49,137 nucleotides of DNA from Pseudoprimorskyibacter sp. GTDB lineage: Bacteria > Pseudomonadota > Alphaproteobacteria > Rhodobacterales > Rhodobacteraceae. The notes beneath the pieces are model-generated. The model had not been told where the DNA came from. It saw only the letters and a program-made list of their open reading frames with translations, and ran no database searches. Position numbers and translations under genes: made by a program. Location of the stretch: the NCBI GenBank assembly GCA_029251265.1, contig JAQXDR010000046.1, positions 1-49,137 on the forward strand, read 5' to 3'. Of the stretch, positions 8,264 through 48,092 are shown one piece after another (the stretch's first letter is position 1; the number at the start of each line of letters is the position of its first letter).

Positions 8264-9016
8264 TCATGACCTAAGCGCCGGCAAACCTACGCCAGTACTT
8301 TGAAATCCGCCATCGGCAGAAAGAATTTGGCCAGTAATATAGCTCGCCCTGTCGGATAACAAAAAGGCGATCGCTTCGGCAATTTCACGTTCAGACCCAT
8401 AGCGGTTCAGTGGGATTGCTTCATGATATGCGTCGATTATGTCTTGCGTATGCACAGCCATCGCCAGCTTTGTCCGCACCGGACCGGGGCAGACGCAATT
8501 TGCGCGGATACCATATTCCCCCAATTCCGCAGCTTGTTGTTGGGTCAGATGGATCACAGCAGCTTTGGATGTTCCATAGGCCACGCGCAAAGTAGATGCG
8601 CGCAGGCCCGAGATCGAGGCGATGTTGACGATCGCCCCCTTGCTCGCCTTCAGCGCGGGCGTTGCGGCCTGACTGCACAAAAAAACACCGTCCAGATTGG
8701 TGGCCATGACATCACGCCAAACGTCGAAGTCCGTCTGTTCAATTGGACCGAACAAGGCGATTCCGGCGTTATTAACCAGCCCGTCCAAACGTCCGGCCCA
8801 GTCGATAACTGTTTCTACCATGCCGGTGACGGCTTGAGGGTTAGAGATATCCGCACATAGTCCAAGGGCGTCTGGACGGTTTGCAGTTTCGGCGCTCAGT
8901 GCCGTCTGATCTTTGTCCACCATGGCAACGCGCCAGCCTCTTTCGCGGAGCAGGTCTGTCGTGGCCAATCCAATTCCCCGGGCGGCGCCGGTGACTATCG
9001 CGGTTTTGTGTTGCAT
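8264..9016 (-). CDS. SDR family oxidoreductase
   Basis: The 250-residue classical SDR has TGAARGIG at the N-terminus for NAD(P) binding, NNAG at about residues 87-90, the Ser in NIASISG and the active-site YGTSK, with the late CPGPV loop typical of the family. AAAGGAC precedes the ATG at 9016. It lies 24 bases downstream of kynU on the same strand, so the two are probably one operon. Whether it acts in tryptophan/kynurenine metabolism is only suggested by the neighbour; many SDRs of this type oxidise sugar alcohols or hydroxy acids. Confidence 0.85.
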   Translation of the reverse strand: MQHKTAIVTGAARGIGLATTDLLRERGWRVAMVDKDQTALSAETANRPDALGLCADISNPQAVTGMVETVIDWAGRLDGLVNNAGIALFGPIEQTDFDVWRDVMATNLDGVFLCSQAATPALKASKGAIVNIASISGLRASTLRVAYGTSKAAVIHLTQQQAAELGEYGIRANCVCPGPVRTKLAMAVHTQDIIDAYHEAIPLNRYGSEREIAEAIAFLLSDRASYITGQILSADGGFQSTGVGLPALRS

Positions 9017-9040
9017 GGGGACAGTCCTTTCTTTTTGGGA

Positions 9041-32891: not shown

Positions 32892-33803
32892 ATGAAGAAA
32901 CTTCTTCTGGCCGGCGCAGCTCTGGCTATGATTGCAGGCGCGGCTTCTGCTGAGCGCTATGTCATGATCACGCACACTCAGGGCACCGACCCGTTCTGGC
33001 CGGTTGTGGAAAAAGGTGGCCGTGACGCCGCAGCCGCCGTTGGTGCAACGCTCGAGTATAACTTCGACGTGTCTGGCGACATGGCAGCAATGGCCGCTTT
33101 GATCGAAACCGCAGCAGCGTCTGAGCCTGATGGCATCATCGTGTCGTTGCCCGATGCGGCGGCGCTTGGCCCTGCGATCAAGTCCGCAGTTGCAGACGGC
33201 ATTCCAGTCATCACCATGAACTCGGGTCTGGAGAGCTCTGCCGAACTGGGTGCGTTGATGCACGTTGGTCAGCCCGAGCGTCTGGCTGGTGAAGCCGCGG
33301 GCGCACGTGCAGCATCCGAAGGTGTGACCAACGGTCTGTGCTTGAACCAAGAAGCGTTCAACACAGCTCTGGTCGATCGTTGCTCGGGTTACTTCGAGGG
33401 TCTTGGCGGCGATCTGAACATGATCGACGTGTCGAATGACCCTGCGCAGATTGAAACACGTACGGCAGCCGCTCTGGAAGCAGACGAGTCGATCGACGGC
33501 GTACTGGCAGTCGGCCCACATGTTTGTGAAGCCGCGACAAAAGCAATCGAAGCCGTCGGTGCCGACGTGCACCTCGCATGCTTTGACCTGTCACCCGGCG
33601 TGATGGACATGATCGAAGACGGCCGCGCGTCGTTCACAATTGACCAGCAGCAGCGTCTGCAGGGTTACATGCCGGTCATCGTTCTGCACCTGTACAACAA
33701 CCACGCAGGTCTGCTGCCAGGCAATAACATCGCCTCCGGCCCAGGCTTTGTTGACAAGTCGAACGCTGCTCAGGTGAAAGCACTGGCGGGCATCGACCGC
33801 TAA
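32892..33803 (+). CDS. Sugar ABC transporter substrate-binding protein
   Basis: The 303-residue periplasmic binding protein of the ribose/xylose type (Peripla_BP_4) has a signal peptide (MKKLLLAGAALAMIAGAASA) and then ERYVMITHTQGTDPFWPVVEKGGRDAAAAVG. The family blocks DGIIVSLPDAAALGPAIKSAVADGIPVITMNSG and DGVLAVGPHVCEAATKAIEAVG follow. Such proteins bind pentoses, hexoses, inositol or sugar derivatives; the ligand is not clear. It is the first gene of the operon, with a strong GGGAGGAAA site. A 12-bp stem-loop follows its stop, which probably protects this mRNA or limits read-through, giving more binding protein than membrane parts. Confidence 0.9.
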   Translation: MKKLLLAGAALAMIAGAASAERYVMITHTQGTDPFWPVVEKGGRDAAAAVGATLEYNFDVSGDMAAMAALIETAAASEPDGIIVSLPDAAALGPAIKSAVADGIPVITMNSGLESSAELGALMHVGQPERLAGEAAGARAASEGVTNGLCLNQEAFNTALVDRCSGYFEGLGGDLNMIDVSNDPAQIETRTAAALEADESIDGVLAVGPHVCEAATKAIEAVGADVHLACFDLSPGVMDMIEDGRASFTIDQQQRLQGYMPVIVLHLYNNHAGLLPGNNIASGPGFVDKSNAAQVKALAGIDR

Positions 33804-33823
33804 GCGTTAGCGCTGTGTGACAT

Positions 33824-33855
33824 GAAAACAGGCGGGGATTTCTCCGCCTGTTTTC
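33824..33855 (+). terminator. Stem-loop between binding-protein and permease genes
   Basis: GAAAACAGGCGG (33824-33835) and CCGCCTGTTTTC (33844-33855) form a perfect 12-bp stem with an eight-base loop, and the stem ends in TTTTC. It is 20 bases after the binding-protein stop and 35 before the permease start, the classic position of an attenuating terminator or RNA-stabilising element in ABC operons. Confidence 0.8.
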
Positions 33856-33889
33856 ACAATTGGGGACAAGAAGTGACGGCGAGGGTGGT

Positions 33890-35056
33890 ATGGCCAATAG
33901 TAGCGAAGCCAGCAGGCTAAAAGAAGAAACTTGGTTCCAAAGGATTGTCCGGCGGCCCGAAATTGGCGCCTTCGTGGTGATGGTGGTCATCATCGTTGGG
34001 CTTATGTTTGCCTCCGACGGCAAAGCGTTCAACGCGCTTGGCCTTAAGAACAACATTAAGATTATTTCGCAGTTTGGCATTATCGCGCTAGGCGCGGCGA
34101 TGTTGATGATTGCCGGTGAATTTGATCTTTCCATTGGGTCCATGATTGGCTTTGCTGGCATGTCTATGTCGCTGATGCTGAAATGGGGACTGCCATTTGG
34201 ACTGGGTGAAGCAACGCCGTTTATGGCCTTCGCTTTGACGCTGGTTATGACGTTGGGCCTAGGATGGTTCATTGGAACCGTGGTTGTCCGCTCGGGATTG
34301 TCCAGTTTCATAGTAACTTTGGCGTTTTTATTCTTTCTGCGCGGCGCGACCGAGGTCGGGTTTCGTTTGATCAACAAATCGACACAGGTTTCGGGTCTGC
34401 AGGATTTCAAAGAAGACAGCTGGTTCGCACACTTTCTTGGAGGTGAACTGTTTGGCTGGTTCTATGACGCATGGTACTGGATCGGCATGCAATTTGTGGA
34501 CTTGGGTTTCGACCGGAAGGAACAGTGGTTCACGCTTGGCGGAAACATTAACCGACGTGGAGAACAGTGGGTCGAAGGGTTCGATGCGCGGTTTTTGTGG
34601 TTTATCGTCATTTCGATGGCCGCATATTTTATTCTTAGCCGAACACAGTTGGGTAACTGGATTTTTGCGACTGGCGACAACAAAGACGCAGCGCGTGCGA
34701 ACGGTGTGCCGGTGAATCGCGTTAAGATTGGACTGTTTATGTTTACCGCGTTTTGCGCGACCATGTTCGCTGCCTGCCAAGTATTCGATACCAACACATC
34801 TGACGCAGCCAAAGGCAACCTCATGGAACTTTTTGCGATTGCGATCGCGGTTGTAGGTGGCACTTTGATGACTGGGGGCTTTGGATCAATCGTCGGCGTG
34901 GTCTTTGGCGCAATTACCGTTGGCCTGGTGTCCAATGCCGTATTCTTTATCCCACAGATTGACGGTGCGTGGTTCCGCGTCTTTGTGGGCACGATTTTGC
35001 TTGCTGCGGTGTTCGCCAACGAACGTATTCGCAAACGCATCACGGGGGGGATCTAG
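33890..35056 (+). CDS. Sugar ABC transporter permease
   Basis: The 388-residue BPD_transp_2-type permease begins MANSSEASRLKEETWFQRIVRRPE, then a run of helices (IGAFVVMVVIIVGLMFAS, IALGAAMLMIAGEFDLSIGSMIGFAG). GEFDLSIGS is the family motif of ribose/xylose permeases. It is longer than usual because of a polar insert of about 60 residues between helices (around 34410-34600, WFYDAWYW, FDRKEQWFTLGGNINRRGEQWVEG). ATG 33890 follows GAGGG and is preferred over TTG 33860. The ATPase gene starts three bases after the stop. Confidence 0.9.
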   Translation: MANSSEASRLKEETWFQRIVRRPEIGAFVVMVVIIVGLMFASDGKAFNALGLKNNIKIISQFGIIALGAAMLMIAGEFDLSIGSMIGFAGMSMSLMLKWGLPFGLGEATPFMAFALTLVMTLGLGWFIGTVVVRSGLSSFIVTLAFLFFLRGATEVGFRLINKSTQVSGLQDFKEDSWFAHFLGGELFGWFYDAWYWIGMQFVDLGFDRKEQWFTLGGNINRRGEQWVEGFDARFLWFIVISMAAYFILSRTQLGNWIFATGDNKDAARANGVPVNRVKIGLFMFTAFCATMFAACQVFDTNTSDAAKGNLMELFAIAIAVVGGTLMTGGFGSIVGVVFGAITVGLVSNAVFFIPQIDGAWFRVFVGTILLAAVFANERIRKRITGGI

Positions 35057-35059
35057 CCC

Positions 35060-35833
35060 ATGACCGAACCATATATGCGCGTTGAAAATCTGGTCAAACA
35101 ATTTGGACCGTTTACGGCACTTGGTGGTGTCGATTTAGAGGTCTACCCAGGTGAAGTTCATGCACTGCTTGGGGATAACGGAGCCGGTAAATCGACGCTG
35201 ATCAAGAACTTGGCCGGTGTTCACCAGCCCTCTTCAGGTCAGATTTATATCGAAGGCAAACCTGTTAACTTTCGCAGTCCGAGAGATGCGTCAAACGCGG
35301 GCATCGGCACCGTGTATCAGGATCTGGCGCTAAACCCACTTATGAGCGTAACGCGGAATTTCTTTATGGGGCGTGAGCTTAAGGGGATGTTCGGCACTCT
35401 GCGCATGGATGAGATGAACCAGATCGCCCATGACGAAATGCTGACGATTGGTATCGACTTTTCTGATCCAACGCAGGCTGTGGGCACAATGTCTGGGGGC
35501 CAACGTCAAACACTGGCCATTGCACGTGCTATCTATTTCGGCGCCAAGGTGCTTATCCTTGATGAACCCACATCAGCTTTGGGTCAGCGGCAGCAGATGG
35601 GCGTGCTCAAAACCATGATGCGAGTGCGGTCACGTGGTGATATTGCAATTATTTTTATCACCCACAACGAAATCCACTCAAAGCTGGTTGCGGATCGTTT
35701 CACCTTTCTCAGTCTTGGCAAAGTGATTGGGCAAGGCACGCGCGAAACATTGGAGGGCGGAGAAATTCGCCGTTTGATGGCTGGTGGGGCTGAACTCGGC
35801 GATTTGGCGAAAGAGCTTGCCGATATTGGCTAA
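35060..35833 (+). CDS. Sugar ABC transporter ATP-binding protein (single domain)
   Basis: The 257-residue ABC ATPase has Walker A GDNGAGKS, the Q-loop region, signature MSGGQRQ and Walker B VLILDEPTSALG, then the H-loop in FITHNE. Most sugar ABC ATPases of this type have two tandem domains (about 500 residues); this one has a single domain, as in the fructose FrcA type, so it should work as a homodimer. It completes the SBP-permease-ATPase operon. A strong terminator follows 106 bases after the stop. Confidence 0.92.
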   Translation: MTEPYMRVENLVKQFGPFTALGGVDLEVYPGEVHALLGDNGAGKSTLIKNLAGVHQPSSGQIYIEGKPVNFRSPRDASNAGIGTVYQDLALNPLMSVTRNFFMGRELKGMFGTLRMDEMNQIAHDEMLTIGIDFSDPTQAVGTMSGGQRQTLAIARAIYFGAKVLILDEPTSALGQRQQMGVLKTMMRVRSRGDIAIIFITHNEIHSKLVADRFTFLSLGKVIGQGTRETLEGGEIRRLMAGGAELGDLAKELADIG

Positions 35834-36870: not shown

Positions 36871-37977
36871 TCATACCCATTTCAGATCAAGCGGAACTGG
36901 AAGGCCAGTGCGCATGCTTTCCTGTGCCGCAAGCCCCATTGCGACAGCGGCCCATCCGTCTGCAAGCGATACCTCTGGCGTGGTCGTCCCGCGGACAACA
37001 TCTAAAAACTTTTGGTGCTGGTAAAATGTAGATCCATTGTGATCACCCGCTTCCAAAAGATCAGGGTCAACCGGAATGGACCGGCTTTGAGGACCTTTTG
37101 GATCACGCGGGCTGATGACAAGCTGTGCCACTGGTGGATCCCCAAGATCCGCAGGCCAAAATCGCCCGGGGCCCGGCACCAGTGCTTCGATCTTGCCCAG
37201 TTGCCCAAGGGCGCTGACCTCTTCTTGATAGCGCGCGCCTTCTGCGAACATACAAAGCTCTAACATAGCCCGTGCGCCGTTCGCGAAATCCACCAGAACG
37301 TATCCGTGATCTAGGATATCGGGAACCTCGCCTTGGTATGTCTCATCCAAGTGGTTTGCCGCTTGTCCGCCACTGGCCATGACACGCATTGGTTCTGCGC
37401 CAATTACAAGCCGCATTAAATCAAAGAAATGACAGCATTTTTCGACAAAAGTGCCCCCAGTGTACCGGTTAAAGCGGTTCCAGTCGCCGATTTTTTCCAA
37501 AAACGGAAACCGGTGCTCGCGGATGGTTAGCATCTGCACGCCGCCGGTAACCTCGGCCGCTTTGTCCAGTAAAGCGGCAATCGGCGGCATGTAGCGGTAT
37601 TCCATCGCGACCCAGATTGGCGCGGGATAGGTTGCATGCAAGGCCTGAAGCCGGTCAGCTTGATCAGGATCCGTAAACAGCGGCTTTTCCACCAATATCG
37701 GCAGAGGATTCTGCGCGGCGATGTGTTCGAGCTGTTCCAAATGTCGGAAATTTGGACTGGCGATGAGCAGGCAATCGAGGTCAGGACGCTGTAGCAGACT
37801 GTCCAAGTCCGGGCAAATTACAATATCCGGAGCGATGCACTTGGCTGTATCAGCCATCACTGCGTCCGGCTCAAATATTGCAGCAACACGTGCGTCTGGC
37901 AGCAACGCAATGTTACGCATATGCTCGTGACCCATCATACCGCAGCCGATGATGCCATAATTTACAATGTCCGCCAT
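36871..37977 (-). CDS. Gfo/Idh/MocA-family oxidoreductase
   Basis: The 368-residue NAD(P)-dependent sugar or polyol dehydrogenase has the Rossmann motif YGIIGCGMMGHEH at the N-terminus, the ASPNFRHLEQ loop, the family EKP motif in PILVEKPLF, and the C-terminal alpha/beta substrate domain with FVEKCCHFFDLMR. Family members act on glucose, myo-inositol, scyllo-inositol and related sugars. It lies between the sugar ABC importer (on the other strand) and GntR. It is downstream of GntR on the same strand (25-base gap), so those two form an operon. It may oxidise a sugar imported by either transporter; the substrate is unknown. Confidence 0.88.
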   Translation of the reverse strand: MADIVNYGIIGCGMMGHEHMRNIALLPDARVAAIFEPDAVMADTAKCIAPDIVICPDLDSLLQRPDLDCLLIASPNFRHLEQLEHIAAQNPLPILVEKPLFTDPDQADRLQALHATYPAPIWVAMEYRYMPPIAALLDKAAEVTGGVQMLTIREHRFPFLEKIGDWNRFNRYTGGTFVEKCCHFFDLMRLVIGAEPMRVMASGGQAANHLDETYQGEVPDILDHGYVLVDFANGARAMLELCMFAEGARYQEEVSALGQLGKIEALVPGPGRFWPADLGDPPVAQLVISPRDPKGPQSRSIPVDPDLLEAGDHNGSTFYQHQKFLDVVRGTTTPEVSLADGWAAVAMGLAAQESMRTGLPVPLDLKWV

Positions 37978-38002: not shown

Positions 38003-38713
38003 TTAGATCAGCCGTTGTGTATAAAGAGCGCGGGATGGATCGAACCATGTGCGCGAAAACTCGATTGGGCGGGGCGCATTGGCCCAGCTAAACCGTTCGA
38101 CATACCCCGTTATGTCACCGGGTACCTGACAGTGATCTTGGGGGCACCAGTCTGGTAAGGTTGCGACACCGACACGATCCTGTGCACGGGTAATCCAAAA
38201 GCCCAGATGCACGCGATAATACGCATAAAGAGAATCGATCAGATCCTCGCTCTGGACTGTTCCGGCGCTTTGATCCAGCCAAATCTCTTCAAGAGCGACG
38301 AGTGTATCATCCAGATAGCGTTGCCTGCGAATACGGGTTGCCATTTGATGGGGGCCGAATTCGGGTAGATCGTCAGGTTTGTCTATGGTGTTCACTGATA
38401 GAATTTTCGCACGCGGCAGACCGCCACCTTGTGGAAGTTCCAACCGGAACATACCGTAAATAAGCGCCCGGGTGTTGGTCACCTTGATGTAATTCCCAGA
38501 CCCGTGCCGTCGTTCCAAAACGCCTAAATCAGCCATGTGTGCCAATGATTTACGTAGTGTTGTCACACTTGTGCCAAGGGTAAGGGCGAGGGCCCGTTCC
38601 GGTGGCAATCGTTCACCATCAATAAGCCTGCCAGCCGCGATATCGCGGATCAAAAGCTCTGCTATTTGCACATAAAGTGGCAGTGCTGGTGTGGCGTGAA
38701 TTGTTTGCGTCAT
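38003..38713 (-). CDS. GntR-family (HutC-type) transcriptional regulator
   Basis: The 236-residue protein has an N-terminal winged helix (LPLYVQIAELLIRDIAAGRLIDGERLPPERALALTLGTSVTTLRKSLAHMADLGVLERRHGSGNYI) and a C-terminal ligand-binding UTRA domain (RIRRQRYLDDTLVALEEIWLD), placing it in the HutC subfamily. It is divergent from the monooxygenase gene, with a TTGAT-N4-ATCAA palindrome between them. It is the likely repressor of the desulfonation-type block and of its own gene plus the Gfo/Idh dehydrogenase. The effector is unknown. Confidence 0.9.
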   Translation of the reverse strand: MTQTIHATPALPLYVQIAELLIRDIAAGRLIDGERLPPERALALTLGTSVTTLRKSLAHMADLGVLERRHGSGNYIKVTNTRALIYGMFRLELPQGGGLPRAKILSVNTIDKPDDLPEFGPHQMATRIRRQRYLDDTLVALEEIWLDQSAGTVQSEDLIDSLYAYYRVHLGFWITRAQDRVGVATLPDWCPQDHCQVPGDITGYVERFSWANAPRPIEFSRTWFDPSRALYTQRLI

Positions 38714-38740: not shown

Positions 38741-38754
38741 TTGATCTACATCAA
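38741..38754. promoter_or_regulatory. Putative GntR operator in the divergent promoter region
   Basis: TTGAT-CTAC-ATCAA is a perfect five-base palindrome with a four-base centre, located between the GntR start (38713) and the monooxygenase start (38803). Just before it a TATACT (38734-38739) could be a -10 element for the plus strand, which would put the palindrome over the transcription start. Position and symmetry are seen; repressor binding is inferred. Confidence 0.55.
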
Positions 38755-38802
38755 AGACATGTGTACGCAAGACAAAATTCGATGACCCGCCCGGAGATTC
38801 CA

Positions 38803-39957
38803 ATGTCGATTGTGCCGATAACCTCACCTGATTTAGATGCCGCTGAGGTGTCTTGGTTTTCGGCATTATGCTCTGATGATTACGAATTTCTTGGCGTGCC
38901 GAATGGCGATCTTCGATCGTCTTGGGATCATTGTTCGGGTATTGTAAAAACAACCGAAGACCTTGGCTTTCGCAATATTCTCTGTCCGTCGTCCTATCAG
39001 GTTGGGCAGGACACATTAAGCTTTGTTGCGGGTTGCGCGCCAATTACGTCCAAGATCAACATGCTCGCTGCGGTGCGCTGCGGTGAAATGCAACCCATCA
39101 TGCTGGCCCGTACGATTGCAACGCTGGACCATATGTTGCAGGGCCGGTTGACCGTTAATATCATTTCAAGCGATTTCCCCGGCGAAAAAGCAGACAGCAA
39201 TTTCCGGTATCAGCGCTCTCGTGAAGTGGTGCAGATCCTCAAGCAGGCCTGGACACGGGATGAAATTAATCACGAGGGCGAGGTCTACAACTTTGCCGGT
39301 GTGAACACAGATCCGGCACGTCCCTATCAAACCGGTGGACCATTGCTCTATTTCGGGGGCTATTCACCGTCTGCGCTGCAATTGTGCGGGGAGCATTGCG
39401 ATGTGTATCTTATGTGGCCGGAACCCATGGATGCATTGGCCGAACGCATGAAAGCAGTTAATGCGGTCGCCTCGGATAAGGGGCGGACACTGGATTACGG
39501 GCTTCGTGTGCATATGATTGTCCGTGACACAGAAGCCGAAGCGCGCGAATACGCAGATCACATCGCGAGCAAACTGGACGACGAATACGGGCAGCTGATC
39601 CGTGAGCGGGCGCTAGACAGTACATCGCTCGGGGTCAGCCATCAGGCCCGGGCGCGCGAGCTTGCAGACAAATATGGCTATGTAGAGCCGAACGTCTGGA
39701 CCGGTGTTGGTCGGGCGCGGTCGGGATGTGGTGCGGCTTTGGTGGGGTCCGTTGATCAGGTGATGACCAAGATCGAGGCCTATCAGAAAATGGGTATGCG
39801 GTCTTTCATCTTTTCAGGATATCCGCATCTGGAAGAGGCGCGTCATTTTGGTACAAAGGTGTTGCCGCAGCTGAAAACATGTTCGCTGCCGCATGAATAT
39901 GGGCGGGTGCCGGCGACGATGCCGGATACCCCACTCGGATTAGGAGAGCGTCGCTGA
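38803..39957 (+). CDS. SsuD-like FMNH2-dependent monooxygenase (LLM class)
   Basis: The 384-residue luciferase-like flavin-dependent monooxygenase is close in pattern to alkanesulfonate monooxygenase SsuD: PLLYFGG, CDVYLMWPEPMDAL, WTGVGRARSGCGAALVG and FSGYPHLEEA. The residues matching SsuD active-site positions are kept: Arg and His of LRVHMIV (about 235 and 237), Arg of GRARSG (about 306) and Tyr of SGYPHL (about 340). SsuD-type enzymes cleave a C-S bond, giving an aldehyde and sulfite. ATG 38803 follows GGAG; GTG 38761 is the longer alternative. It is the first of three one-base-overlapping genes. The actual substrate is unknown. Confidence 0.88.
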   Translation: MSIVPITSPDLDAAEVSWFSALCSDDYEFLGVPNGDLRSSWDHCSGIVKTTEDLGFRNILCPSSYQVGQDTLSFVAGCAPITSKINMLAAVRCGEMQPIMLARTIATLDHMLQGRLTVNIISSDFPGEKADSNFRYQRSREVVQILKQAWTRDEINHEGEVYNFAGVNTDPARPYQTGGPLLYFGGYSPSALQLCGEHCDVYLMWPEPMDALAERMKAVNAVASDKGRTLDYGLRVHMIVRDTEAEAREYADHIASKLDDEYGQLIRERALDSTSLGVSHQARARELADKYGYVEPNVWTGVGRARSGCGAALVGSVDQVMTKIEAYQKMGMRSFIFSGYPHLEEARHFGTKVLPQLKTCSLPHEYGRVPATMPDTPLGLGERR

Positions 39958-40850
39958 TGGAGCGTTTGGAATTGGCTGAAGATCTGAGCTTTAGCCGCTT
40001 GGTATACGGTATGTGGCGCCTAGCGGACGAGGGGGCAGACACCTCAATCGCCGCGGTGACACGCAAGATCGAATTATGTCTCGATCAGGGTATCACAACA
40101 TTTGATCAGGCTGACATCTATGGCGGTTACGCCGCCGAAGCGGTGTTGGGCGCGGCGCTTAAGGCGAACCCGGGATTACGAAACCAGATGGAGATCGCAA
40201 CCAAATGCGATATCGTCGCCCCGGTAGGACGTCATGCAAACGCGCCACATAAATACTATGATACGAGCCGCGCGCATATAGACGCCTCGGTCGAGGCGTC
40301 GCTTGCCGAAATGGGGGTTGAGCATGTCGATTTGCTGCTGATCCACAGGCCGGATCCATTTATGGACCATTTCGAAACAGGCGCTGCGTTGGATGATATC
40401 GTGGCGTCTGGCAAGGCGCGTGCCGTCGGTGTTTCGAACTTTCGCCCATGGGATTGGGATTTGCTGCAATCCGCGATGAAAACACCTCTGGCGACCAACC
40501 AGATCGAGCTGTCCCTGTCCGAGATCAATCCCTTTACAAACGGTGATTTGGCATTTCATCAGCGTCAGGGCCAGCCGGTCATGGCGTGGTCACCTTTGGG
40601 CGGTGGGTCGCTTATGACGGGCAGTGGCGATGTCGCGCATATTCTTGATGAAATAGCGCGGGATCAGGGCGTGGATCGTGCTGCCGTTGCAATTGCCTTT
40701 TTGCTGGCGCATCCCGCACGTATTTTGCCGGTGCTTGGAACAAATAACATGGATCGAATAGCTTCAATTTCCGATGCAATGTCTGTCAAAATTGACCGTC
40801 CGGCTTGGTTTCGTCTGTATCAGGCCGCCTTGGGCCGTGAAGTGGCCTGA
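39957..40850 (+). CDS. Aldo/keto reductase
   Basis: The 297-residue NADPH-dependent TIM-barrel reductase resembles E. coli YdhF. The catalytic tetrad is visible: Asp and Tyr in FDQADIYGGY, Lys in IATKCD and His in LLIHRPDP. The cofactor region VGVSNFRPW and the late WSPLGGG are also present. The ATG overlaps the monooxygenase stop by one base (TGATG). In this operon it would fit as the step that reduces the aldehyde made by the monooxygenase, as SmoB does after SmoC in sulfoquinovose breakdown. That is inference from context. Confidence 0.9.
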   Translation: MERLELAEDLSFSRLVYGMWRLADEGADTSIAAVTRKIELCLDQGITTFDQADIYGGYAAEAVLGAALKANPGLRNQMEIATKCDIVAPVGRHANAPHKYYDTSRAHIDASVEASLAEMGVEHVDLLLIHRPDPFMDHFETGAALDDIVASGKARAVGVSNFRPWDWDLLQSAMKTPLATNQIELSLSEINPFTNGDLAFHQRQGQPVMAWSPLGGGSLMTGSGDVAHILDEIARDQGVDRAAVAIAFLLAHPARILPVLGTNNMDRIASISDAMSVKIDRPAWFRLYQAALGREVA

Positions 40851-41359
40851 TGTCGCAGATGCCTGATCCATTGACCTTTGTTCCCGAAGCTTCCAACAGC
40901 AGACTTTTGCGTGATGCATTCGGTCGGTTTGCGACGGGTGTCACCGTCGTAACCTGCGGGTCAGATGTCGGACCGATTGCAATTACGGCAAATAGCTTTT
41001 CAAGTGTTTCGATGGAGCCGCCACTGGTGTTGTGGTCCCCGTCACGTGCATCGCGCCGCTTCCCTTATTTCGAAGCAGCCCGGAATTACGCTATTCATGT
41101 TTTATCGGTTGAACAATCTGCTCTTTGTGACGCGGTGTCAAAAAACGCCTATGCGTTGACGGACTTTGCACATACCGTGAATTCGGATGGTGTGCCATTG
41201 CTGGATGGGGCCTTGGCGCGATTTGTGTGTCATCAGCGGGCCGTCTACGACGGCGGTGATCATGCGATTATTTTGGGTGAGGTTAAGCAAGCAAGTTTGC
41301 AAGACGGTACTGCTTTGGCGTTCTACGCCGGGAAAATGGGTCAGATTGCACAATCATAA
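40850..41359 (+). CDS. Flavin reductase (HpaC/DIM6-NTAB type)
   Basis: The 169-residue FMN reductase domain protein has LLRDAFGRFATGVTVVTCG, then ITANSFSSVSMEPPLVLWSPSRASR and YAIHVLSVEQ, typical of reductases that feed two-component monooxygenases with reduced flavin using NAD(P)H. The start overlaps the aldo/keto reductase stop by one base, so three genes are translated in series. It is the natural partner of the SsuD-like enzyme. It differs from SsuE, which belongs to the flavodoxin-like NADPH:FMN reductases. Confidence 0.9.
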   Translation: MSQMPDPLTFVPEASNSRLLRDAFGRFATGVTVVTCGSDVGPIAITANSFSSVSMEPPLVLWSPSRASRRFPYFEAARNYAIHVLSVEQSALCDAVSKNAYALTDFAHTVNSDGVPLLDGALARFVCHQRAVYDGGDHAIILGEVKQASLQDGTALAFYAGKMGQIAQS

Positions 41360-41393
41360 GTGCAACAACCCGCTGTAAAGGGGAGGATCCGCC

Positions 41394-42017
41394 ATGGGCG
41401 GAGTTGTGTCGGCTCTTAACGTCGTCGCTACGTGTTTGGGAGTAGTCAACGCTGCTATTTTGCGGCTGGGCAACGCTGTCGGAGTGTTTTGCGTTGGTGC
41501 GATGGTTGTCGCAATTCTAATTCAGGTATTTTTCCGCTATGTTTTGAACAATGCTTTGCCTTGGCCGGACGAGGCGGCGCGTTTTTGCATGCTTTGGATG
41601 ACCGGGGCGATGGCGCCTGTTGCCTTTCGACGCGGTGGCTTTGTGGCCATTGATATGATCCCTCGGATGTTGCCCAACCTTGTTGCACAGGTTTTAGCTT
41701 TGGTGCTTTTGGGAGTATCCTGTGTGGTGCTTTGGACCGGTGTAGAACTGGGCTGGAACCACATCACGGGGTTTGCCGGCAGCGGTAAATCAGCGTCTCT
41801 GTACACCTTTTTCAAAATCGAATTGCGTGGTGGGTTCGGAATTGACTGGGGCATTCAAAAAATGCCCAAGGCCCAGATGATGGGATCACTATTCGTAGGC
41901 GTGTGTTTGCTGCTTTCCGTTAATGTCGAACTAATTTTGCGCAGCCTGATCCGTTTGCTTGGAGGATCGTCCATGCTTCTTGAGATCGACGGCGAAGAAA
42001 TGGCAGGGGCGGAATAA
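41394..42017 (+). CDS. TRAP transporter small permease (DctQ type)
   Basis: The 207-residue inner-membrane protein has four predicted helices (GVFCVGAMVVAILIQVFFRYV, then APVAFRRGGFVAIDMI, VLALVLLGVSCVVLWTG and LFVGVCLLLSVNVELIL). FRYVLNNALPWPDEAARF and the following Arg-Gly pair are typical DctQ features. A polar loop of about 40 residues before the last helix makes it slightly long. GGGGAGG precedes the ATG. It begins 34 bases after the flavin reductase gene and overlaps dctM by one base, so transporter and enzymes are one transcript. Confidence 0.9.
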   Translation: MGGVVSALNVVATCLGVVNAAILRLGNAVGVFCVGAMVVAILIQVFFRYVLNNALPWPDEAARFCMLWMTGAMAPVAFRRGGFVAIDMIPRMLPNLVAQVLALVLLGVSCVVLWTGVELGWNHITGFAGSGKSASLYTFFKIELRGGFGIDWGIQKMPKAQMMGSLFVGVCLLLSVNVELILRSLIRLLGGSSMLLEIDGEEMAGAE

Positions 42018-43492
42018 TGCTGGTTTGGTTTCTACCTGTTTTTCTTGTTTTTCTGCTGATCGGATTGCCTGTATTTTTTGGTCTGCTGGCGGCGCCGGGG
42101 CTTCTTTTGTGGATGAACGGACAGGAACGCGACATCGCCTTGTTGTATCGCAACGTCTACAATGGCATGGACAGCTTTCCACTGATGGCGATCCCGTTTT
42201 TCATGCTGGCTGGAGAGCTGATGAACAGGGGCGGTATCACGATCCGCCTGGTTGAATTTAGTCAAGCGCTTATGGGCCATCTGCGTGGCGGTTTGGCGCA
42301 TGTGAACGTTTTGTCTTCTATTCTTTTTGCAGGGCTGTCCGGTTCGGCTGTCGCGGACACGTCAGCGTTGGGGTCCATGCTGATCCCGGCGATGGAAAAA
42401 CAGGGCTATACGCGCAGATTTGCGGCCGCCATCACGGCGGCGAGTTCGGTTATTGGTCCCATCATTCCCCCATCGGGGATTATGATCATCTACGCCTATG
42501 TCATGGGTGAAAGCGTTGCGGCGCTTTTCCTTGCAGGCATTGTGCCGGGTGTGCTGGTCGGCGTGTCGCTTATGATTATGATCCGGCTTATGGCCGACCG
42601 CTATGATCTACCCAAAGCAGAGCGTATTGTCCGCAAGGGCGAGCCACTCAGCCCGATGGAATATTGGTTCTCGCTGGTCCTTGCACGGTTGAACCTAGGC
42701 TATCTGATATACGTGCTGATGGGCGCTTTTGTAGAAACCGAAGGCGTGTTGGCTTGGGTCAGCTTTGCCGTCGCGTTGATCATTACACATGTGCTGCTGC
42801 TTGGATTGCGCAGTCAGGTTTCTGTTGATTTCCGTGCAGTTTGCAAACGTGCAGTGGTGCCGCTGCAAACGCCAATCCTGATTTTGGGGGGGATACTGTT
42901 GGGGGTCTTTACTCCAACAGAGGCGGCTGCCATTGCAGTTGCTTATGCCCTTTTGATCGGATTTTTTATCCTGCGCACGCTCCGTTGGGCAGATTTGCCG
43001 GATGTCTTTGCCCGGGCGGGGATTACATCGGCGGTTGTCTTATTGTTGGTTGGCGCGGCTATGGCGTTTAAGACCGTTGTCTCGCTTAGTCATGCGCCCG
43101 AAACGCTTGCGGCCTTTATCCTTGGGCTGACAGAAAATCCATTGCTGTTGCTATTCCTGATCAACATCTTGTTGTTCATTGTGGGGATGTTTTTGGATGC
43201 GGGTCCCGCGATCATCATCCTTGGGCCAATTTTGGGACCGATTTTCACAGATCTTGGTGTCGACAGTATTCACTTTGCAATCATCATGTCGGTGAATTTG
43301 ACCGTGGGCTTGGCAACGCCCCCCATGGGACTTGTGTTGTTTGTGGCGGCTTCGGTCAGCCAGGAAAAAGTTGAAACCATCGCCAAGGCGATTCTGCCAT
43401 TTTTAGCTGTCGAAGTTCTGGTGATTTTTCTGATCACTTACGTCCCCGCGATAAGCATGACAATTCCGCGTCTGACAGGCTTTGCAAATTGA
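42017..43492 (+). CDS. TRAP transporter large permease (DctM type)
   Basis: The 491-residue membrane protein with about 12-13 helices is the Na+-driven transport subunit of a TRAP importer. The family blocks are clear: AIPFFMLAGELMNRGGIT, SSILFAGLSGSAVADTSALGSMLIPAMEKQGY, GPIIPPSGIMIIYAYVMGESVAALF, TPTEAAAIAVAYAL and MFLDAGPAIIILGPILGPI. It is longer than many DctM proteins because of an extra polar and hydrophobic section near residues 190-270. The start overlaps the dctQ stop by one base (TAATG). It pairs with the DctQ and DctP proteins on either side. Confidence 0.93.
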   Translation: MLVWFLPVFLVFLLIGLPVFFGLLAAPGLLLWMNGQERDIALLYRNVYNGMDSFPLMAIPFFMLAGELMNRGGITIRLVEFSQALMGHLRGGLAHVNVLSSILFAGLSGSAVADTSALGSMLIPAMEKQGYTRRFAAAITAASSVIGPIIPPSGIMIIYAYVMGESVAALFLAGIVPGVLVGVSLMIMIRLMADRYDLPKAERIVRKGEPLSPMEYWFSLVLARLNLGYLIYVLMGAFVETEGVLAWVSFAVALIITHVLLLGLRSQVSVDFRAVCKRAVVPLQTPILILGGILLGVFTPTEAAAIAVAYALLIGFFILRTLRWADLPDVFARAGITSAVVLLLVGAAMAFKTVVSLSHAPETLAAFILGLTENPLLLLFLINILLFIVGMFLDAGPAIIILGPILGPIFTDLGVDSIHFAIIMSVNLTVGLATPPMGLVLFVAASVSQEKVETIAKAILPFLAVEVLVIFLITYVPAISMTIPRLTGFAN

Positions 43493-43546
43493 CCTGAAAG
43501 GCGCAAGAATACCCGTAAACCGAGAACCAACCTGGGAGGTACTACA

Positions 43547-44611
43547 ATGCTCGGAAAGACCCTTAAATCGCTCACGATTGCCGCATTATTAGCCGGCACC
43601 GCGGGCGCAGCTACAGCCGCAGATTATACCCTGCGTGCCACAGCAAACTCTAATGAGAACGACGAAGACTATGACGGTCTGATCGTTTTCAAAAACTATG
43701 TTGAGGCAGCATCCAACGGTGCGATCGAGGTCGAGCTGTTCATCGGCACTCAGTTGTGCTCGAACGGAACGGAATGCTTGACCGGTGTGGCCGAAGGTCA
43801 GATCGATATCGTTATTCAGACGTCCGGCGGAACGTCCGGCTTCTTCCCGTTCGTGCAGGTTCTGGATTTGCCGTATCTGATGGCTGACGACCGTGTTGCA
43901 GAAAATGCTTTGGCAAATGGATCCGACTTTGTGACCACGATGCAGAGCATGGTTCAGGAATACTCCGAAGGCGCACTTCGTCTTATGACCATTGGCAACA
44001 CCGGCGGCTGGCGGAACTTTGCCAACACCCAACGCCGTGTCCAAAACCCATCCGACATGGATGGTTTGAAAATCCGAACCGTCGTTGCGGACCTGCCGCA
44101 GGAACTGGTGCGTGCCCTCGGTGCGTCGCCCACACCGATCCCATGGCCAGAACTCTTTACATCATTCCAGACAGGTGTTGTGGAAGGATCCAAGAATGGC
44201 ATCACGGACATCATGAACATGAAGTTCCCTGATGCAGGCTTGCAGTATGTAACATTGGACGGACACGCCTACATGGGCGCGCTCTGGTTCATGAACAACG
44301 AAACTTTCATGTCCATGCCAGCAGAAATGCGTACCGTAATTGTTGATGGGTTCTATCAACTGCAGCAGGCAACTTTTGCCTCGCCAAAGCGTAAGTCGAT
44401 CCAAGCCTACGCCGATTTTGTTGCCGGTGGTGGTGATCTTTACGTGCCATCGCCTGCGGAAAAAGCGGCCTTCCGCGATGCGGCTTCGCCAGTTTATGAC
44501 TGGTTCAAGCAGAACATTGATGGTGGCGAGCGTGCATTTGATGCACTCGTGGGTGCTGTCGCCGACGCAGAAGCAGCGATTGGTGCGACCCGCGCCGCAG
44601 ACACACAGTAA
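43547..44611 (+). CDS. TRAP transporter substrate-binding protein (DctP type)
   Basis: The 354-residue periplasmic protein has a signal peptide (MLGKTLKSLTIAALLAGTAGAATA) and the DctP-family body. DGLKIRTVVADLPQELVRALGASPTPIPWPELFTSFQTGVVEGSKNG contains the conserved Arg that salt-bridges an acidic ligand in this family. TRAP-binding proteins bind carboxylates and also sulfonates (taurine, isethionate, dihydroxypropanesulfonate in known examples). GGGAGG precedes the ATG, and a hairpin terminator follows 22 bases after the stop. Two Cys near residues 66 and 72 (TQLCSNGTECLTG) could form a disulfide. Confidence 0.93.
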   Translation: MLGKTLKSLTIAALLAGTAGAATAADYTLRATANSNENDEDYDGLIVFKNYVEAASNGAIEVELFIGTQLCSNGTECLTGVAEGQIDIVIQTSGGTSGFFPFVQVLDLPYLMADDRVAENALANGSDFVTTMQSMVQEYSEGALRLMTIGNTGGWRNFANTQRRVQNPSDMDGLKIRTVVADLPQELVRALGASPTPIPWPELFTSFQTGVVEGSKNGITDIMNMKFPDAGLQYVTLDGHAYMGALWFMNNETFMSMPAEMRTVIVDGFYQLQQATFASPKRKSIQAYADFVAGGGDLYVPSPAEKAAFRDAASPVYDWFKQNIDGGERAFDALVGAVADAEAAIGATRAADTQ

Positions 44612-44769: not shown

Positions 44770-45465
44770 TCAGTAGAACTGCGAATAGCTGCCAAAGCCT
44801 GCGTCCAGCGCGATCGTGGTCCAGTTTTGGTGCGCGGCTTCGGCGCGCAAGGTTGTAGCGCGGGCGAGTTTTTGGTCGGTTCGGTAGTCTGTAACGCTGT
44901 GCCCAAGGTCGGTGCGGAACCTCCGCCCCAGGCGTCCAGGCGACAGTCCGACCTCTTGCGCGATCTGTGGCACCCCGCGCGTGGGGTCATCCCGCCAAAG
45001 TCGTGCTGCCTGGTCGACAGCGGGGTGCACCGCGCGTCCCCGGCCATCCGGCACCGCGTGCCACAGGGCCCAGGCCCGGGACAACCACCAGAGCAACCCT
45101 GCATGCCGGGCGGCCAAGCCTGCGGTTGACGTTTGCGCATCGGCGATCTGTTCCAGTTCCGTGACGGCACTGTCCACAAGCTGTCGGGGCGGCAGGTCTG
45201 TGCCGCGCAAGGGGGGCAGGCCCGAGCGGTGCTCTGGCAGAGCCGCATCAGCCACCAGGACCACCCGCATGTCAAAGCCCGCCGTTTCAGACAAAAGCAC
45301 GTGCTGCTGCCCGGCCATCGCCCAGAGTAGGCTGCCCCGACGCAGGGCATAAACCAGACCGTCCACGAGGTACTGGGCAGAGCCTTCGAGACCCAAAAGA
45401 ACCACCAACTCCTGATGCGCCTCGGCCCCGGTGGGGCGATGTCGGCGCAGGGACCGGCGCCACAT
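44770..45465 (-). CDS. AraC-family transcriptional regulator, possibly damaged at its ends
   Basis: The 231-residue protein has an N-terminal sensing region (AEAHQELVVLLGLEGSAQYLVDG) and a C-terminal AraC DNA-binding region (GVPQIAQEVGLSPGRLGRRFRTDLG, then TIALDAGFGSYSQFY). It stops at FGSYSQFY, where relatives continue with Arg and some 10-20 more residues; the TGA may be a mutated CGA. At the other end, a better start (ATG 45515 with AAGGAT before it) opens a 16-residue frame, MVEDAPHPLVLLLHTV, whose TGA overlaps ATG 45465. It is either a leader peptide or the true N-terminus cut off by a one-base frameshift. It is divergent from the dioxygenase gene. Confidence 0.75.
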   Translation of the reverse strand: MWRRSLRRHRPTGAEAHQELVVLLGLEGSAQYLVDGLVYALRRGSLLWAMAGQQHVLLSETAGFDMRVVLVADAALPEHRSGLPPLRGTDLPPRQLVDSAVTELEQIADAQTSTAGLAARHAGLLWWLSRAWALWHAVPDGRGRAVHPAVDQAARLWRDDPTRGVPQIAQEVGLSPGRLGRRFRTDLGHSVTDYRTDQKLARATTLRAEAAHQNWTTIALDAGFGSYSQFY

Positions 45466-45598
45466 CAGACCGTGTGGAGCAGTAATACCAGCGGATGCGG
45501 GGCGTCTTCGACCATTTTTGCAATATCCTTATCCCAAATTGACAAGATCTAGGTGCAGAATGGCATATTATGACGCCTGTACCAACCGGGAGGATAAC

Positions 45599-46306
45599 AT
45601 GTTGGACGCCGCATCAAGCTTTCGCAGCCAGGGCTACGCCTTATTCGAAGGCGCGCTCAGCGCCGAGGACATCGCGCTCTTGCGGGGCGCCTGCGACCAC
45701 CTACTGGACGAACCGGTGCACGATGGCGGCAACGGCGACATCCACAAAATCGGTCTGGGCAAGGCGCGCCGCTTCCTGCGCCACCGTCATGAGGAATTCC
45801 CGGGGCTTGAGGACTTCTTGCTTGGAAAGCGCATTGCTGACATCTGCGGCGCCTGCGGGATGGAGGACCCCATGCTTTTTAACGAGCAGTTTGTGGTCAA
45901 AGGCGCGGGCAAGGGGGCCAGCTTTGCATGGCATCAGGACGGTGCCTATGTGGGGTTCGACCACAGGCCCTACCTGACCATCTGGATCGCGCTGGATGAC
46001 GCCACCGAAGAGAACGGCTGCGTGTATATCCTGCCCCGGGATCTGAAGGCCGAGGGGCATCTGGACGCCCACGAATGGCAAGACGACAGCAACGAGCTAA
46101 ATGGATATTTTGGCTCAGAAACAGGCATGCCAATGACTTGCAAAGCAGGCACAATCGTGGCTTTCTCTAGCCTGACGCTCCACAGTTCGGGGGCCAATAC
46201 GACCGGCACGCCACGCCGGGCCTATGTCACGCAGTATAGCCAGGGGCCGATCATTGACCCAAATACAGGTGCACCAAAACGATTTACAAAACCGCTGCGA
46301 GCCTGA
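45599..46306 (+). CDS. Phytanoyl-CoA dioxygenase (PhyH) family protein
   Basis: The 235-residue Fe(II)/2-oxoglutarate-dependent dioxygenase carries the metal facial triad His112 and Asp114 (WHQDGAY) and His195 (TLHSSGANTTGTPRRAY), with the Arg of TPRRAY fitting the 2-oxoglutarate clamp. GGGAGG precedes ATG 45599, so the longer upstream frame is rejected. Bacterial PhyH-family proteins hydroxylate many small molecules (ectoine, phosphonates and others), so the name does not imply phytanic acid. It lies divergent to the AraC gene, its probable regulator, and converges on the Sel1-repeat gene with a four-base gap. Confidence 0.9.
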   Translation: MLDAASSFRSQGYALFEGALSAEDIALLRGACDHLLDEPVHDGGNGDIHKIGLGKARRFLRHRHEEFPGLEDFLLGKRIADICGACGMEDPMLFNEQFVVKGAGKGASFAWHQDGAYVGFDHRPYLTIWIALDDATEENGCVYILPRDLKAEGHLDAHEWQDDSNELNGYFGSETGMPMTCKAGTIVAFSSLTLHSSGANTTGTPRRAYVTQYSQGPIIDPNTGAPKRFTKPLRA

Positions 46307-46310
46307 GGGC

Positions 46311-46790
46311 TTAGCGGAAGGGATACATCCACGGTCGATAATCATCGATCAGGATTTGCGCACGCGCGATTTGATCGGGTGTCATCCGGTGGACAACCTC
46401 TTCCAAACTGATGGCGGCGTCGGGATCTCCGCCAATTGCCGACAACGCGTACCAAAGGTAGGCGCGAACCAGATCGGGGGCGGGCATGCCGCGCCCGACC
46501 TCGTAGTACCAGCCGATGCCGGATTGCGCGCCGGGGTGCCCCTTGAGCGAGGACCGCAGATACCATTCAAAGGCGCGCTCGTCGTCGCGCTCGACGCCCA
46601 GGCCAAGCGCATACATGACGCCGATCAGTTCCTCGGCATCGGCATTGCCGGAGCGGGCCAGCGGCAGAAAGGCTTGCATTGCGTCTTCGAACTGCCCGTT
46701 TTCCATAAGATCGCGGGCCTGTTCCAGTCCTTGCGCTTGGGCAAAAGGCGCGGTGAGGCAAAATACAAAGGTAAGAAACGTGCAGCGCAT
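46311..46790 (-). CDS. Sel1-repeat secreted protein
   Basis: The 159-residue protein has a signal peptide (MRCTFLTFVFCLTAPFAQAQ) and two Sel1-like TPR-type repeats (NADAEELIGVMYALGLGVERDDERAFEWYLRSSLKGHPGAQSGIGWYYEVGRGM, then DLVRAYLWYALSAIGGD). Such proteins act as periplasmic scaffolds and the partner is unknown. Its ATG (46788-46790) directly abuts the GTG of the MauG-type gene on the other strand, so each promoter must lie inside the other's coding sequence. Confidence 0.85.
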   Translation of the reverse strand: MRCTFLTFVFCLTAPFAQAQGLEQARDLMENGQFEDAMQAFLPLARSGNADAEELIGVMYALGLGVERDDERAFEWYLRSSLKGHPGAQSGIGWYYEVGRGMPAPDLVRAYLWYALSAIGGDPDAAISLEEVVHRMTPDQIARAQILIDDYRPWMYPFR

Positions 46791-48092
46791 GTGGCGGGCC
46801 TTTTGCTGTGGGGGTCGGTTGCATTTGCGGATTTACCCGCACCGATGTCAGACAAGGATTTCCTACAATTCGATATGGAGCAAGCCCGTTTGGGCCAGTT
46901 GTTGTTCTATGATCCGATCTTGTCTGGAAACCGCAACATTGCCTGTGCAACATGTCACCATCCCAAGTTCGGTACGGGGGATGGTCTTAGCCTCGGAATA
47001 GGTGAAGGGGGACAGGGTTTGGGGCCGGATCGTGTGCCGGGCACCGGGTCGGCACGCATTCGCAAGCGAATTCCGCGCAATGCGCCTGCGCTTTGGAACC
47101 TTGGCGCGAAAGAGTTCACCGTTTTTTTTCATGATGGACGCGCGACGGCCCTCGATACATATGACAACAGCTTTGATACTCCGGCAGAGGAATGGTTGCC
47201 CGACGGGCTGGATAGCCTTCTTGCAGCCCAGGCTATATTTCCGCTTACCGCACAGTTTGAAATGGCAGGCAATCCGGGTGAAAATCAGGTCACCGGTGCG
47301 GTGCATGACCGTATCGACGGTGCATGGCCCATTCTCGCAAAACGTGTGCGGACGATCCCCGAATATGGTGAGCGTTTGCAAAAGGCCTTTGATCTGAATG
47401 GTCCAGAAGAGGCTGCGATTGAACATATCGCAAACGCCTTGGCGGCATTTATGAAACTGGAATTTCGAAGCACAGACAGCCCGTTTGATGCCGCACTGCG
47501 CGGCGGGACGGGTGCGTTGGACGTACATCAAGCACGTGGTATGGACCTGTTTTATGGCAAGGCTGGATGTAGCAGTTGTCATAGCGGAGCATTGCTCACG
47601 GACCATAATTTTCACGCACTCGGAATTCCCGGATTTGGCCCGGGTCGGACGCGCCGTTTTGACCCTATGCCACGAGATGTGGGTCGCATGGGGGAAAGCG
47701 ATCTTTTGGAAGACATGTACCGTTTTCGGACACCGTCCTTGCGCAACGTTGCCCTGACGGCGCCCTACGGACACAATGGGGCCTACCCCACGTTGGAGGG
47801 GATCGTTCGCCACCATCTTGATGTGCACGGAATGCGTGCGGTTTGGACACCAGAGATGGCGCAGCTGCCGGATGTGCCCTGGCTGGTGGGCGTGGACTTT
47901 GCCATTCGCGAGGACCGTTTCGAGATGGCGCGCGAGGCAGCGGCGTTGGACATCGTCCCGCGGGACCTGACCGATGACGAGATCGCAGACGTCATTGCGT
48001 TTTTGCATGCTTTGACAGGGCGCTCTGCTCGGGTTGGCGTGCTGGGCATTCCCGATGCAGTTCCCAGTGGTCTGCCCGTCGCGGGTCAGTGA
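46791..48092 (+). CDS. Di-haem cytochrome c peroxidase (MauG/CcpA type)
   Basis: The 433-residue periplasmic protein (if the GTG at 46791 is used) has a hydrophobic start (MAGLLLWGSVAFA) and two c-type haem sites: CATCH at residues 52-56 and CSSCH at 260-264. RTPSLRNVALTAPYGHNGAYPTLEGIV is the family motif near the distal haem. Bacterial cytochrome c peroxidases reduce H2O2 to water using electrons from a small cytochrome; MauG-type relatives modify proteins. The start is uncertain: the frame is open upstream, and an upstream TTG would give a longer, more basic signal region. It is monocistronic. Confidence 0.88.
   Translation: MAGLLLWGSVAFADLPAPMSDKDFLQFDMEQARLGQLLFYDPILSGNRNIACATCHHPKFGTGDGLSLGIGEGGQGLGPDRVPGTGSARIRKRIPRNAPALWNLGAKEFTVFFHDGRATALDTYDNSFDTPAEEWLPDGLDSLLAAQAIFPLTAQFEMAGNPGENQVTGAVHDRIDGAWPILAKRVRTIPEYGERLQKAFDLNGPEEAAIEHIANALAAFMKLEFRSTDSPFDAALRGGTGALDVHQARGMDLFYGKAGCSSCHSGALLTDHNFHALGIPGFGPGRTRRFDPMPRDVGRMGESDLLEDMYRFRTPSLRNVALTAPYGHNGAYPTLEGIVRHHLDVHGMRAVWTPEMAQLPDVPWLVGVDFAIREDRFEMAREAAALDIVPRDLTDDEIADVIAFLHALTGRSARVGVLGIPDAVPSGLPVAGQ

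Follow-up and report, generated by a model that had tools for sequence, protein, structure and literature searches.

A sulfo-SMO-type sulfoquinovose gene cluster with a predicted TRAP importer and a conserved di-heme neighbor

Introduction

Which sulfonate do three enzyme genes and a transporter serve when they are encoded in a single run? We asked this of a 49,137-nucleotide stretch of DNA from Pseudoprimorskyibacter sp. (Alphaproteobacteria, Rhodobacteraceae; contig JAQXDR010000046.1, assembly GCA_029251265.1), the whole of which we call the window. It encodes a monooxygenase, an aldo/keto reductase and a flavin reductase, followed by a complete tripartite ATP-independent periplasmic (TRAP) transporter, and a preliminary description took the set for a possibly new organosulfonate pathway. 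Judged by sequence families, the enzymes almost certainly belong to the degradation of sulfoquinovose (SQ), a sugar of plants and algae, and the probability is high that the window holds an SQ utilization cluster of the oxygen-dependent sulfoquinovose monooxygenase (sulfo-SMO) type, in which the TRAP transporter would import SQ or its glycosides. SQ is produced at about ten billion tons per year, and bacteria of the Roseobacter clade have sulfo-SMO clusters (PMC10755693). The sulfo-SMO enzymes and their sulfoquinovosidase are known; less known are a TRAP transporter shared by two SQ pathways and a di-heme partner encoded beside it.

Results

The enzymes match the known sulfo-SMO pathway

The six open reading frames (ORFs) lie where they were previously placed, all on the plus strand and with one-base overlaps at 39957, 40850 and 42017, and Pfam assigns all six to the expected families. 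Gaps of 34 nt separate the flavin reductase from DctQ and of 54 nt DctM from DctP, and DctP, DctQ and DctM each score above the Pfam cut-off, which identifies the transporter as TRAP.

Residues 1-383 of the monooxygenase match the Protein Data Bank (PDB) chains 7olf (713 bits) and 7oh2 (707 bits), which have generic names in the database and which we take to be SmoC. The chains that follow score far lower (7jv3, 194 bits; SsuD 1m41, 183 bits), and the SsuD equivalog cut-off (NCBIfam TIGR03565) is not reached (244 vs 518 bits). The claimed retention of the SsuD active-site Arg, His, Arg and Tyr is real: alignments to 1m41 and 1nqk place them at R235, H237, R306 and Y340, which together with the stretch SSYQVGQD are unchanged in 90/90 aligned monooxygenase rows. 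A placement of the protein relative to SsuD and SmoC, made here by similarity search and family cut-offs instead of a tree, falls on the SmoC side. The aldo/keto reductase matches 7bby at 400 bits, with the runner-up family at 196 bits; 7bby and 7bbz, again generically named, are presumably SmoB. By these similarities the two proteins are the sulfo-SMO monooxygenase SmoC (SquD) and reductase SmoB (SquF). For the flavin reductase the Pfam family is confirmed and the best NCBIfam model, FerA, is below cut-off, leaving its role assigned by family and not by SmoA orthology; the gene is missing from some known sulfo-SMO clusters (PMC9594981). The logic of SmoABC, monooxygenolytic cleavage of the C-S bond, was thus correctly recognized in the preliminary description, but the scores to 7olf and SsuD identify the set as that of the known SQ pathway and not of a new sulfonate pathway.

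The same description saw no sulfoquinovosidase nearby, and this was wrong. The gene divergent from smoC encodes a GH188 sulfoquinovosidase by its similarity to 8zn9 (534 bits), 8qc3 (376 bits) and 8qc2 (372 bits), the latter two being ArSqgA and FlSqgA, NAD+-dependent enzymes of this family (Kaur 2023, PMC10755693). The ArSqgA side chains that contact SQ include Lys107, Tyr136, Arg166, Lys172, Glu189, His193 and His321 (PMC10755693). Their window equivalents K98, Y127, R156, K162, E179, H183 and H313, mapped by hand from a pairwise alignment in which Glu163 of that paper is not placed with certainty, are unchanged in 84/84 rows. With the SQ-contact and catalytic residues of ArSqgA retained, the window enzyme is predicted to have the same activity. 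A GH31 family model had no match in the window genome (3.98 Mb, 99.5% complete, with a single SmoC match), while it matched in 6/14 control genomes. GH188 is described as near-universal among Roseobacter-clade sulfo-SMO clusters (PMC10755693), so the enzymes together with GH188 represent a known arrangement.

A TRAP transporter is linked to the cluster across genomes

Loci and genomes are cited below by our own numbers (L and G). A similarity search with SmoC returned at least 574 relatives, of which the best 80 loci (81-86% identity; nearly all labeled Rhodobacteraceae, Roseobacter-clade or Roseibium/Labrenzia) were used. Among these 80, SqgA is present in 77, GntR in 79, the aldo/keto reductase in 79, the flavin reductase in 73, DctQ in 59, DctM in 58 and DctP in 57. 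The complete block of eight genes, including the divergent SqgA and GntR, occurs in 56/80, too often for the arrangement to be chance; the conservation check that had been suggested for this locus therefore supports linkage of the block. DctP is absent from 23 loci, including L081, which is truncated by a contig end, and L063, which has DctQ and DctM. Among the TRAP-less loci, L074 is neighbored by ATP-binding cassette (ABC) permeases, an alpha-amylase-family gene and an ABC ATPase, and L024 by a major facilitator superfamily gene and an ABC ATPase gene, the same clusters occurring in L031.

As a separate observation, a run of Gfo/Idh-type genes follows the TRAP-less SMO clusters of L003, L027, L036, L052 and L055, and the L027 group additionally has a UxuA gene and a sugar-binding protein.

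Linkage was also seen in two sets of genomes. In a draw of 385 genomes from the class, SmoC (threshold E 1e-120) was found in nine, and TRAP genes adjoin it in seven of these, the window's own included; the exceptions are G349, where the contig stops within the aldo/keto reductase, and G310, where TRAP lies on a separate contig. The block extends beyond the family within the class in G272, G213 and G193, the last cut by a contig end within DctM. In a set of 295 genomes of the family, each from a different genus, SmoC (E 1e-120) occurs in 122, DctP (E 1e-80) in 101 and both in 74 (odds ratio 8.3, p 8e-16, with shared ancestry ignored). Of the 74 genomes with both, 70 have DctP downstream of SmoC at a distance of 2.1-6.0 kb and in the same orientation, and the remaining four carry the two genes on different contigs.

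The divergent promoter region carries TTGATCTACATCAA (38742-38755), the sole TTGAT-N4-ATCAA palindrome in the window, which we take to be an FNR-family consensus. Of 96 non-duplicate SmoC loci, 47 have such a site at a distance of 59-93 nt ahead of the gene, and the distribution of the site follows the transporter, with 46/66 loci that have TRAP versus 1/30 without. The 2.3 Mb of locus sequence hold 55 such palindromes, and four rearranged control patterns gave 0, 0, 2 and 0.

The same TRAP accompanies a second sulfoquinovose pathway

Of the 295 family genomes, 27 have DctP but no SmoC match, and the surroundings of DctP in these bear directly on cargo. We retrieved the loci of 22 of these 27 and of three class-draw genomes; left out were G432, G441, G446, G578 and G625 from the family and G335 and G366, genomes with a distant DctP, from the class draw. 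After L141 was dropped, its SmoC being present in two pieces, 24 loci remain. In 15 of them DctP stands with an SQ-isomerase-like protein, a PfkB kinase and a LacD-type aldolase, a trio found in none of the 80 SMO loci. All 15 also encode a GH188 relative 49-54% identical to that of the window, and further genes are a DeoR-type regulator (13 loci), an aldose epimerase (9), an aldehyde dehydrogenase (9) and the MauG-like gene described below (13). We read these loci as SQ clusters of the sulfo-Embden-Meyerhof-Parnas (EMP) type, as their gene families suggest. None of the 15 EMP loci has the palindrome in the 250 nt that precede DctQ, and a search of the window genome with the SQ-isomerase-like protein of L113, run without a positive control, gave no match. 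Elsewhere in the set, L120, L121, L128 and L130 retain parts of the SMO cluster and L142 has a distant EMP-like set.

We note in addition that the TRAP loci L121, L128 and L130 keep a SmoB-type reductase with no SmoC seen; L130 keeps SqgA, GntR and flavin reductase as well, and its gap between GntR and the reductase is only ~290 bases (about 8746-9036).

A DctP tree of 67 rows (44 SMO, 15 EMP including L142, and 8 other; thinned from 92 sequences) places the two pathways among one another. The EMP label requires 13 changes, at least 7 of them forced by well-supported branches, compared with a mean of 13.8 for shuffled labels, and the EMP DctPs form one group in 0/200 bootstrap trees, in an analysis whose bootstrap is not fully settled and in which L142 and L143 are long branches. 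The SMO label is somewhat clustered (13 changes vs 19.4 shuffled). This interleaving suggests that association of the receptor family with one or the other pathway arose repeatedly.

Because two SQ pathways with the same TRAP have SQ and its glycoside in common, these are the cargo that the sharing points to, and from linkage, two-pathway sharing and the tree we consider it very likely that the window TRAP is an SQ/SQ-glycoside importer. The glycoside would presumably be imported whole, since GH188 needs NAD+.

The receptor forms a family of its own

Across 63 sequences, 152/354 positions of DctP are unchanged, and the Cys pair C71/C77 is invariant. The closest other DctP in the window genome is 28% identical. 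The predicted model (predicted local distance difference test score, pLDDT, 77.8; weak at residues 201-225) has the TRAP receptor fold. Among solved structures 4p47 matches it best (Z 30.6, root-mean-square deviation (rmsd) 2.9 over 305 aligned residues), but TeaA, IseP and numerous others score nearly as well, so that the ranking does not single out a ligand. The isethionate receptor IseP offers a characterized comparison: it belongs to a system of three TRAP components (8t9t, 8te9), R156 and R177 of DctP align with two of its arginines, and it fits the model with Z 29.0 and rmsd 2.6 over 292 aligned residues. IseP differs in being ~20% identical, whereas the window DctP belongs to its own family, marked by C71/C77 and tied to sulfosugar enzymes. 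Lengths of DctM in 58 loci fall into 21 long (490-497 aa) and 36 short (429 aa) proteins and one that is cut; that of the window is long, with a central insert of ~62 residues.

A di-heme protein is a conserved partner

Past the end of the previously described genes, the frame 46224-48092 encodes a CCP/MauG-family protein (Pfam CCP_MauG) with two CXXCH motifs, an additional conserved partner of the block. Its homology begins near 46830, behind a hydrophobic stretch that suggests a periplasmic location. The predicted model (pLDDT 87.4) superimposes on structures of CCP and of MauG with similar scores (Z 28-31) and matches RoxA weakly (4b2n, Z 8.2, rmsd 4.5, 272 aligned). By its two CXXCH motifs and modeled fold the protein is a member of the di-heme CCP/MauG superfamily. 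No NCBIfam cut-off is reached, neither that of the best model, TIGR03981 (248 vs 340 bits), nor that of TIGR03791 (127 vs 444 bits), the equivalog of MauG, an enzyme of tryptophan tryptophylquinone biosynthesis. From known members of the CCP/MauG/MbnH superfamily the protein differs by its sulfosugar TRAP neighbor.

The MauG-like gene follows DctP in 49/57 TRAP loci and in 0/23 of the other SmoC loci; in three of the eight TRAP loci without it, less than 1.1 kb of contig remains. A close homolog (best match E <1e-141, a limit chosen after a gap in the match list was seen) occurs in 81/295 family genomes. DctP is also present in 76 of these 81 and adjacent in 63, namely in 45/74 genomes with SmoC and 18/27 without, and 25 family genomes have DctP without a close homolog. 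At E 1e-80, some relative is present in at least 172/295 family genomes among the matches listed.

A strict tie to TRAP was considered and rejected, as L131, L132, L133 and L136 have SMO and a 51-55% identical copy directly after the flavin reductase, with no TRAP in 14-15 kb. A role of the protein in modifying DctP found no support. The DctP columns that differ by presence of the gene are N38, I176, S215, K216, D229, A241 and L246, with no Trp, Tyr or Cys among them (72 with the gene vs 8 without, the latter being genomes lacking a close homolog and excluding the distant L142 and L143).

Discussion

An SsuD-like reading of the monooxygenase, as a sulfur-scavenging enzyme or one acting on C2/C3 sulfonates in a cluster not meant for SQ, could draw on the shared superfamily and the retained Arg/His/Arg/Tyr positions. 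The protein is nevertheless closer by far to 7olf than to SsuD (713 vs 183 bits), stays well under the SsuD equivalog cut-off (244 vs 518 bits) and is accompanied by a GH188 sulfoquinovosidase in 77/80 loci, so that this reading has a negligible probability. A more serious one grants that the enzymes degrade SQ and lets the TRAP transporter import some other co-occurring compound, for example a sugar acid or a C2/C3 sulfonate such as sulfolactate or 2,3-dihydroxypropane-1-sulfonate (DHPS), while SQ enters otherwise. Carboxylates are the usual ligands of TRAP receptors, IseP (8t9t) ranks second among the profile matches of DctP, and 48/122 SmoC genomes manage without a window-type DctP. Against this, DctP is encoded behind the SQ enzymes in what looks like a single operon and is found again beside a second SQ pathway, and an enzyme for DHPS, sulfolactate or isethionate was not noted in the part of the window that was read. 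We regard import of such other cargo as unlikely. The ligands proposed in the preliminary description included SQ, and a TRAP transporter for a sulfonate still fits; isethionate and DHPS, also on that list, are poor candidates because the enzymes encoded around the TRAP belong to SQ families in two different pathways.

The linkage itself might be an inherited neighborhood that carries no functional meaning, a concern raised by the dominance of a single bacterial family in the data and by Fisher tests that are blind to ancestry. Arguing against it are the 13 changes of EMP label that the DctP tree needs, 7 or more of which well-supported branches require, and also the class members beyond the family that carry the block (G272, G213 and the contig-end-cut G193), and we hold mere inheritance to be very improbable. 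Several points do weigh against an SQ importer. The SQ-isomerase-like protein has sulfoquinovose isomerase as its sole NCBIfam match, at 246 bits and below the cut-off of 700. Nine of the 24 SmoC-less DctP loci are without the full EMP trio, and in L112, L119, L143 and L146 no SQ enzyme is present in the retrieved stretch, the L112 genome having SmoC elsewhere. DctP is only 20-24% identical to solved receptors, many of which fit about equally; the SmoC genomes without a window-type DctP indicate that SMO works with other importers too; and the linkage statistics are uncorrected for shared ancestry.

Under the SQ-import reading, DctP would catch SQ or sulfoquinovosyl glycerol (SQGro) in the periplasm and DctQM would bring it in. 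The GH188 enzyme would then cleave the glycoside with catalytic NAD+, and SmoC, supplied with reduced flavin mononucleotide (FMNH2) by the flavin reductase, would cleave the C-S bond of SQ to give sulfite and 6-dehydroglucose, which the aldo/keto reductase would convert to glucose. The divergent promoter may be controlled by GntR and possibly also by an FNR-type factor that binds the palindrome.

This scheme shares its SmoC-type, SmoB-type and flavin reductase components with the sulfo-SMO (sulfo-ASMO) systems of Agrobacterium tumefaciens, Novosphingobium aromaticivorans and the Roseobacter clade (PMC9594981, PMC12890257, PMC10755693), and a sulfoquinovosidase of the same GH188 class with the Roseobacter clusters (PMC10755693). 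It departs from the Agrobacterium cluster by TRAP in place of an SQGro ABC transporter (PMC9594981) and by GH188 in place of GH31, and a further difference is the MauG-like gene nearby. The SQ importers described in PMC9594981 and PMC12421959 are ABC systems, and the word 'TRAP' is absent from the main text of PMC12890257 and PMC13372026. A search of the sulfoquinovose literature found no report linking SQ to TRAP or to MauG; Liu 2023 (Roseobacter SQ) and the supplement of Kaur 2023 lay outside that search and may well show TRAP.

If SQ is the cargo, a TRAP receptor common to two SQ pathways would serve as a portable marker of SQ uptake in genomes and metagenomes. The cluster context also gives a highly conserved TRAP receptor family a testable ligand, and it draws attention to a di-heme enzyme encoded next to sulfosugar genes for no obvious reason. 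One speculative proposal, on the whole doubtful, is that TRAP and the MauG-like protein form a single transferable periplasmic unit for SQ acquisition, repeatedly joined to two unrelated SQ pathways, in which the di-heme enzyme would oxidize a sulfolipid-derived substrate or a partner protein for uptake. Oxidation of a substrate would be the likelier form, given that no Trp, Tyr or Cys of DctP is tied to the gene. Were this correct, it would constitute a redox step in sulfosugar import, of which the literature search found no description.

Neighboring genes

Table 1. Features of the window discussed here (feature; coordinates; strand; basis of the assignment)
GH188 NAD+-dependent sulfoquinovosidase (predicted; SqgA type, Gfo/Idh-type gene), divergent from smoC	36871-37977	-	PDB similarity and conserved residues
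GntR/UTRA regulator, divergent from smoC	38003-38713	-	Pfam; present in 79/80 loci
Palindrome TTGATCTACATCAA, divergent promoter region	38742-38755	n/a	conserved site, 47/96 non-duplicate SmoC loci
SQ monooxygenase SmoC (SquD), 384 aa from ATG; GTG at 38761 a possible start	38803-39957	+	Pfam, PDB similarity
Aldo/keto reductase of SmoB (SquF) type, predicted 6-dehydroglucose reductase, 297 aa	39957-40850	+	similarity to 7bby
Flavin reductase (SmoA role), 169 aa	40850-41359	+	Pfam family
TRAP small permease DctQ, 207 aa	41394-42017	+	Pfam
TRAP large permease DctM, 491 aa, long form	42017-43492	+	Pfam, length comparison
TRAP solute receptor DctP, 354 aa, proposed SQ/SQ-glycoside binder	43547-44611	+	Pfam, linkage, tree
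AraC-type regulator	44770-45465	-	between DctP and MauG-like gene
PhyH-family Fe/2-oxoglutarate dioxygenase, possible accessory	45569-46303	+	Pfam PhyH; between DctP and MauG-like gene
Sel1-repeat gene	46311-46790	-	between DctP and MauG-like gene
MauG/CCP-type di-heme protein, homologous part; gene start codon uncertain	46830-48089	+	Pfam CCP_MauG, two CXXCH
Ribose-type ABC sugar transporter, ~1 kb from the sulfoquinovosidase	32892-35833	+	

The ABC transporter upstream of the sulfoquinovosidase was considered as an importer for the cluster and set aside: its binding protein and permease are unmatched in the other loci at E 1e-20, and its ATPase has 27-46% matches in 16 loci, which places the transporter outside the conserved block. 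The AraC-type gene was found among the 80 loci only in L047. A PhyH gene occurs in only 2/80 SMO loci, and it lies near a window-type TRAP also in L017, L047, L119, L145 and L146, in SMO, EMP-type and other settings. The best PDB match of the PhyH protein is EvdO2 (62 bits); it may be an SQ-related oxygenase, with SqoD as a candidate identity only.

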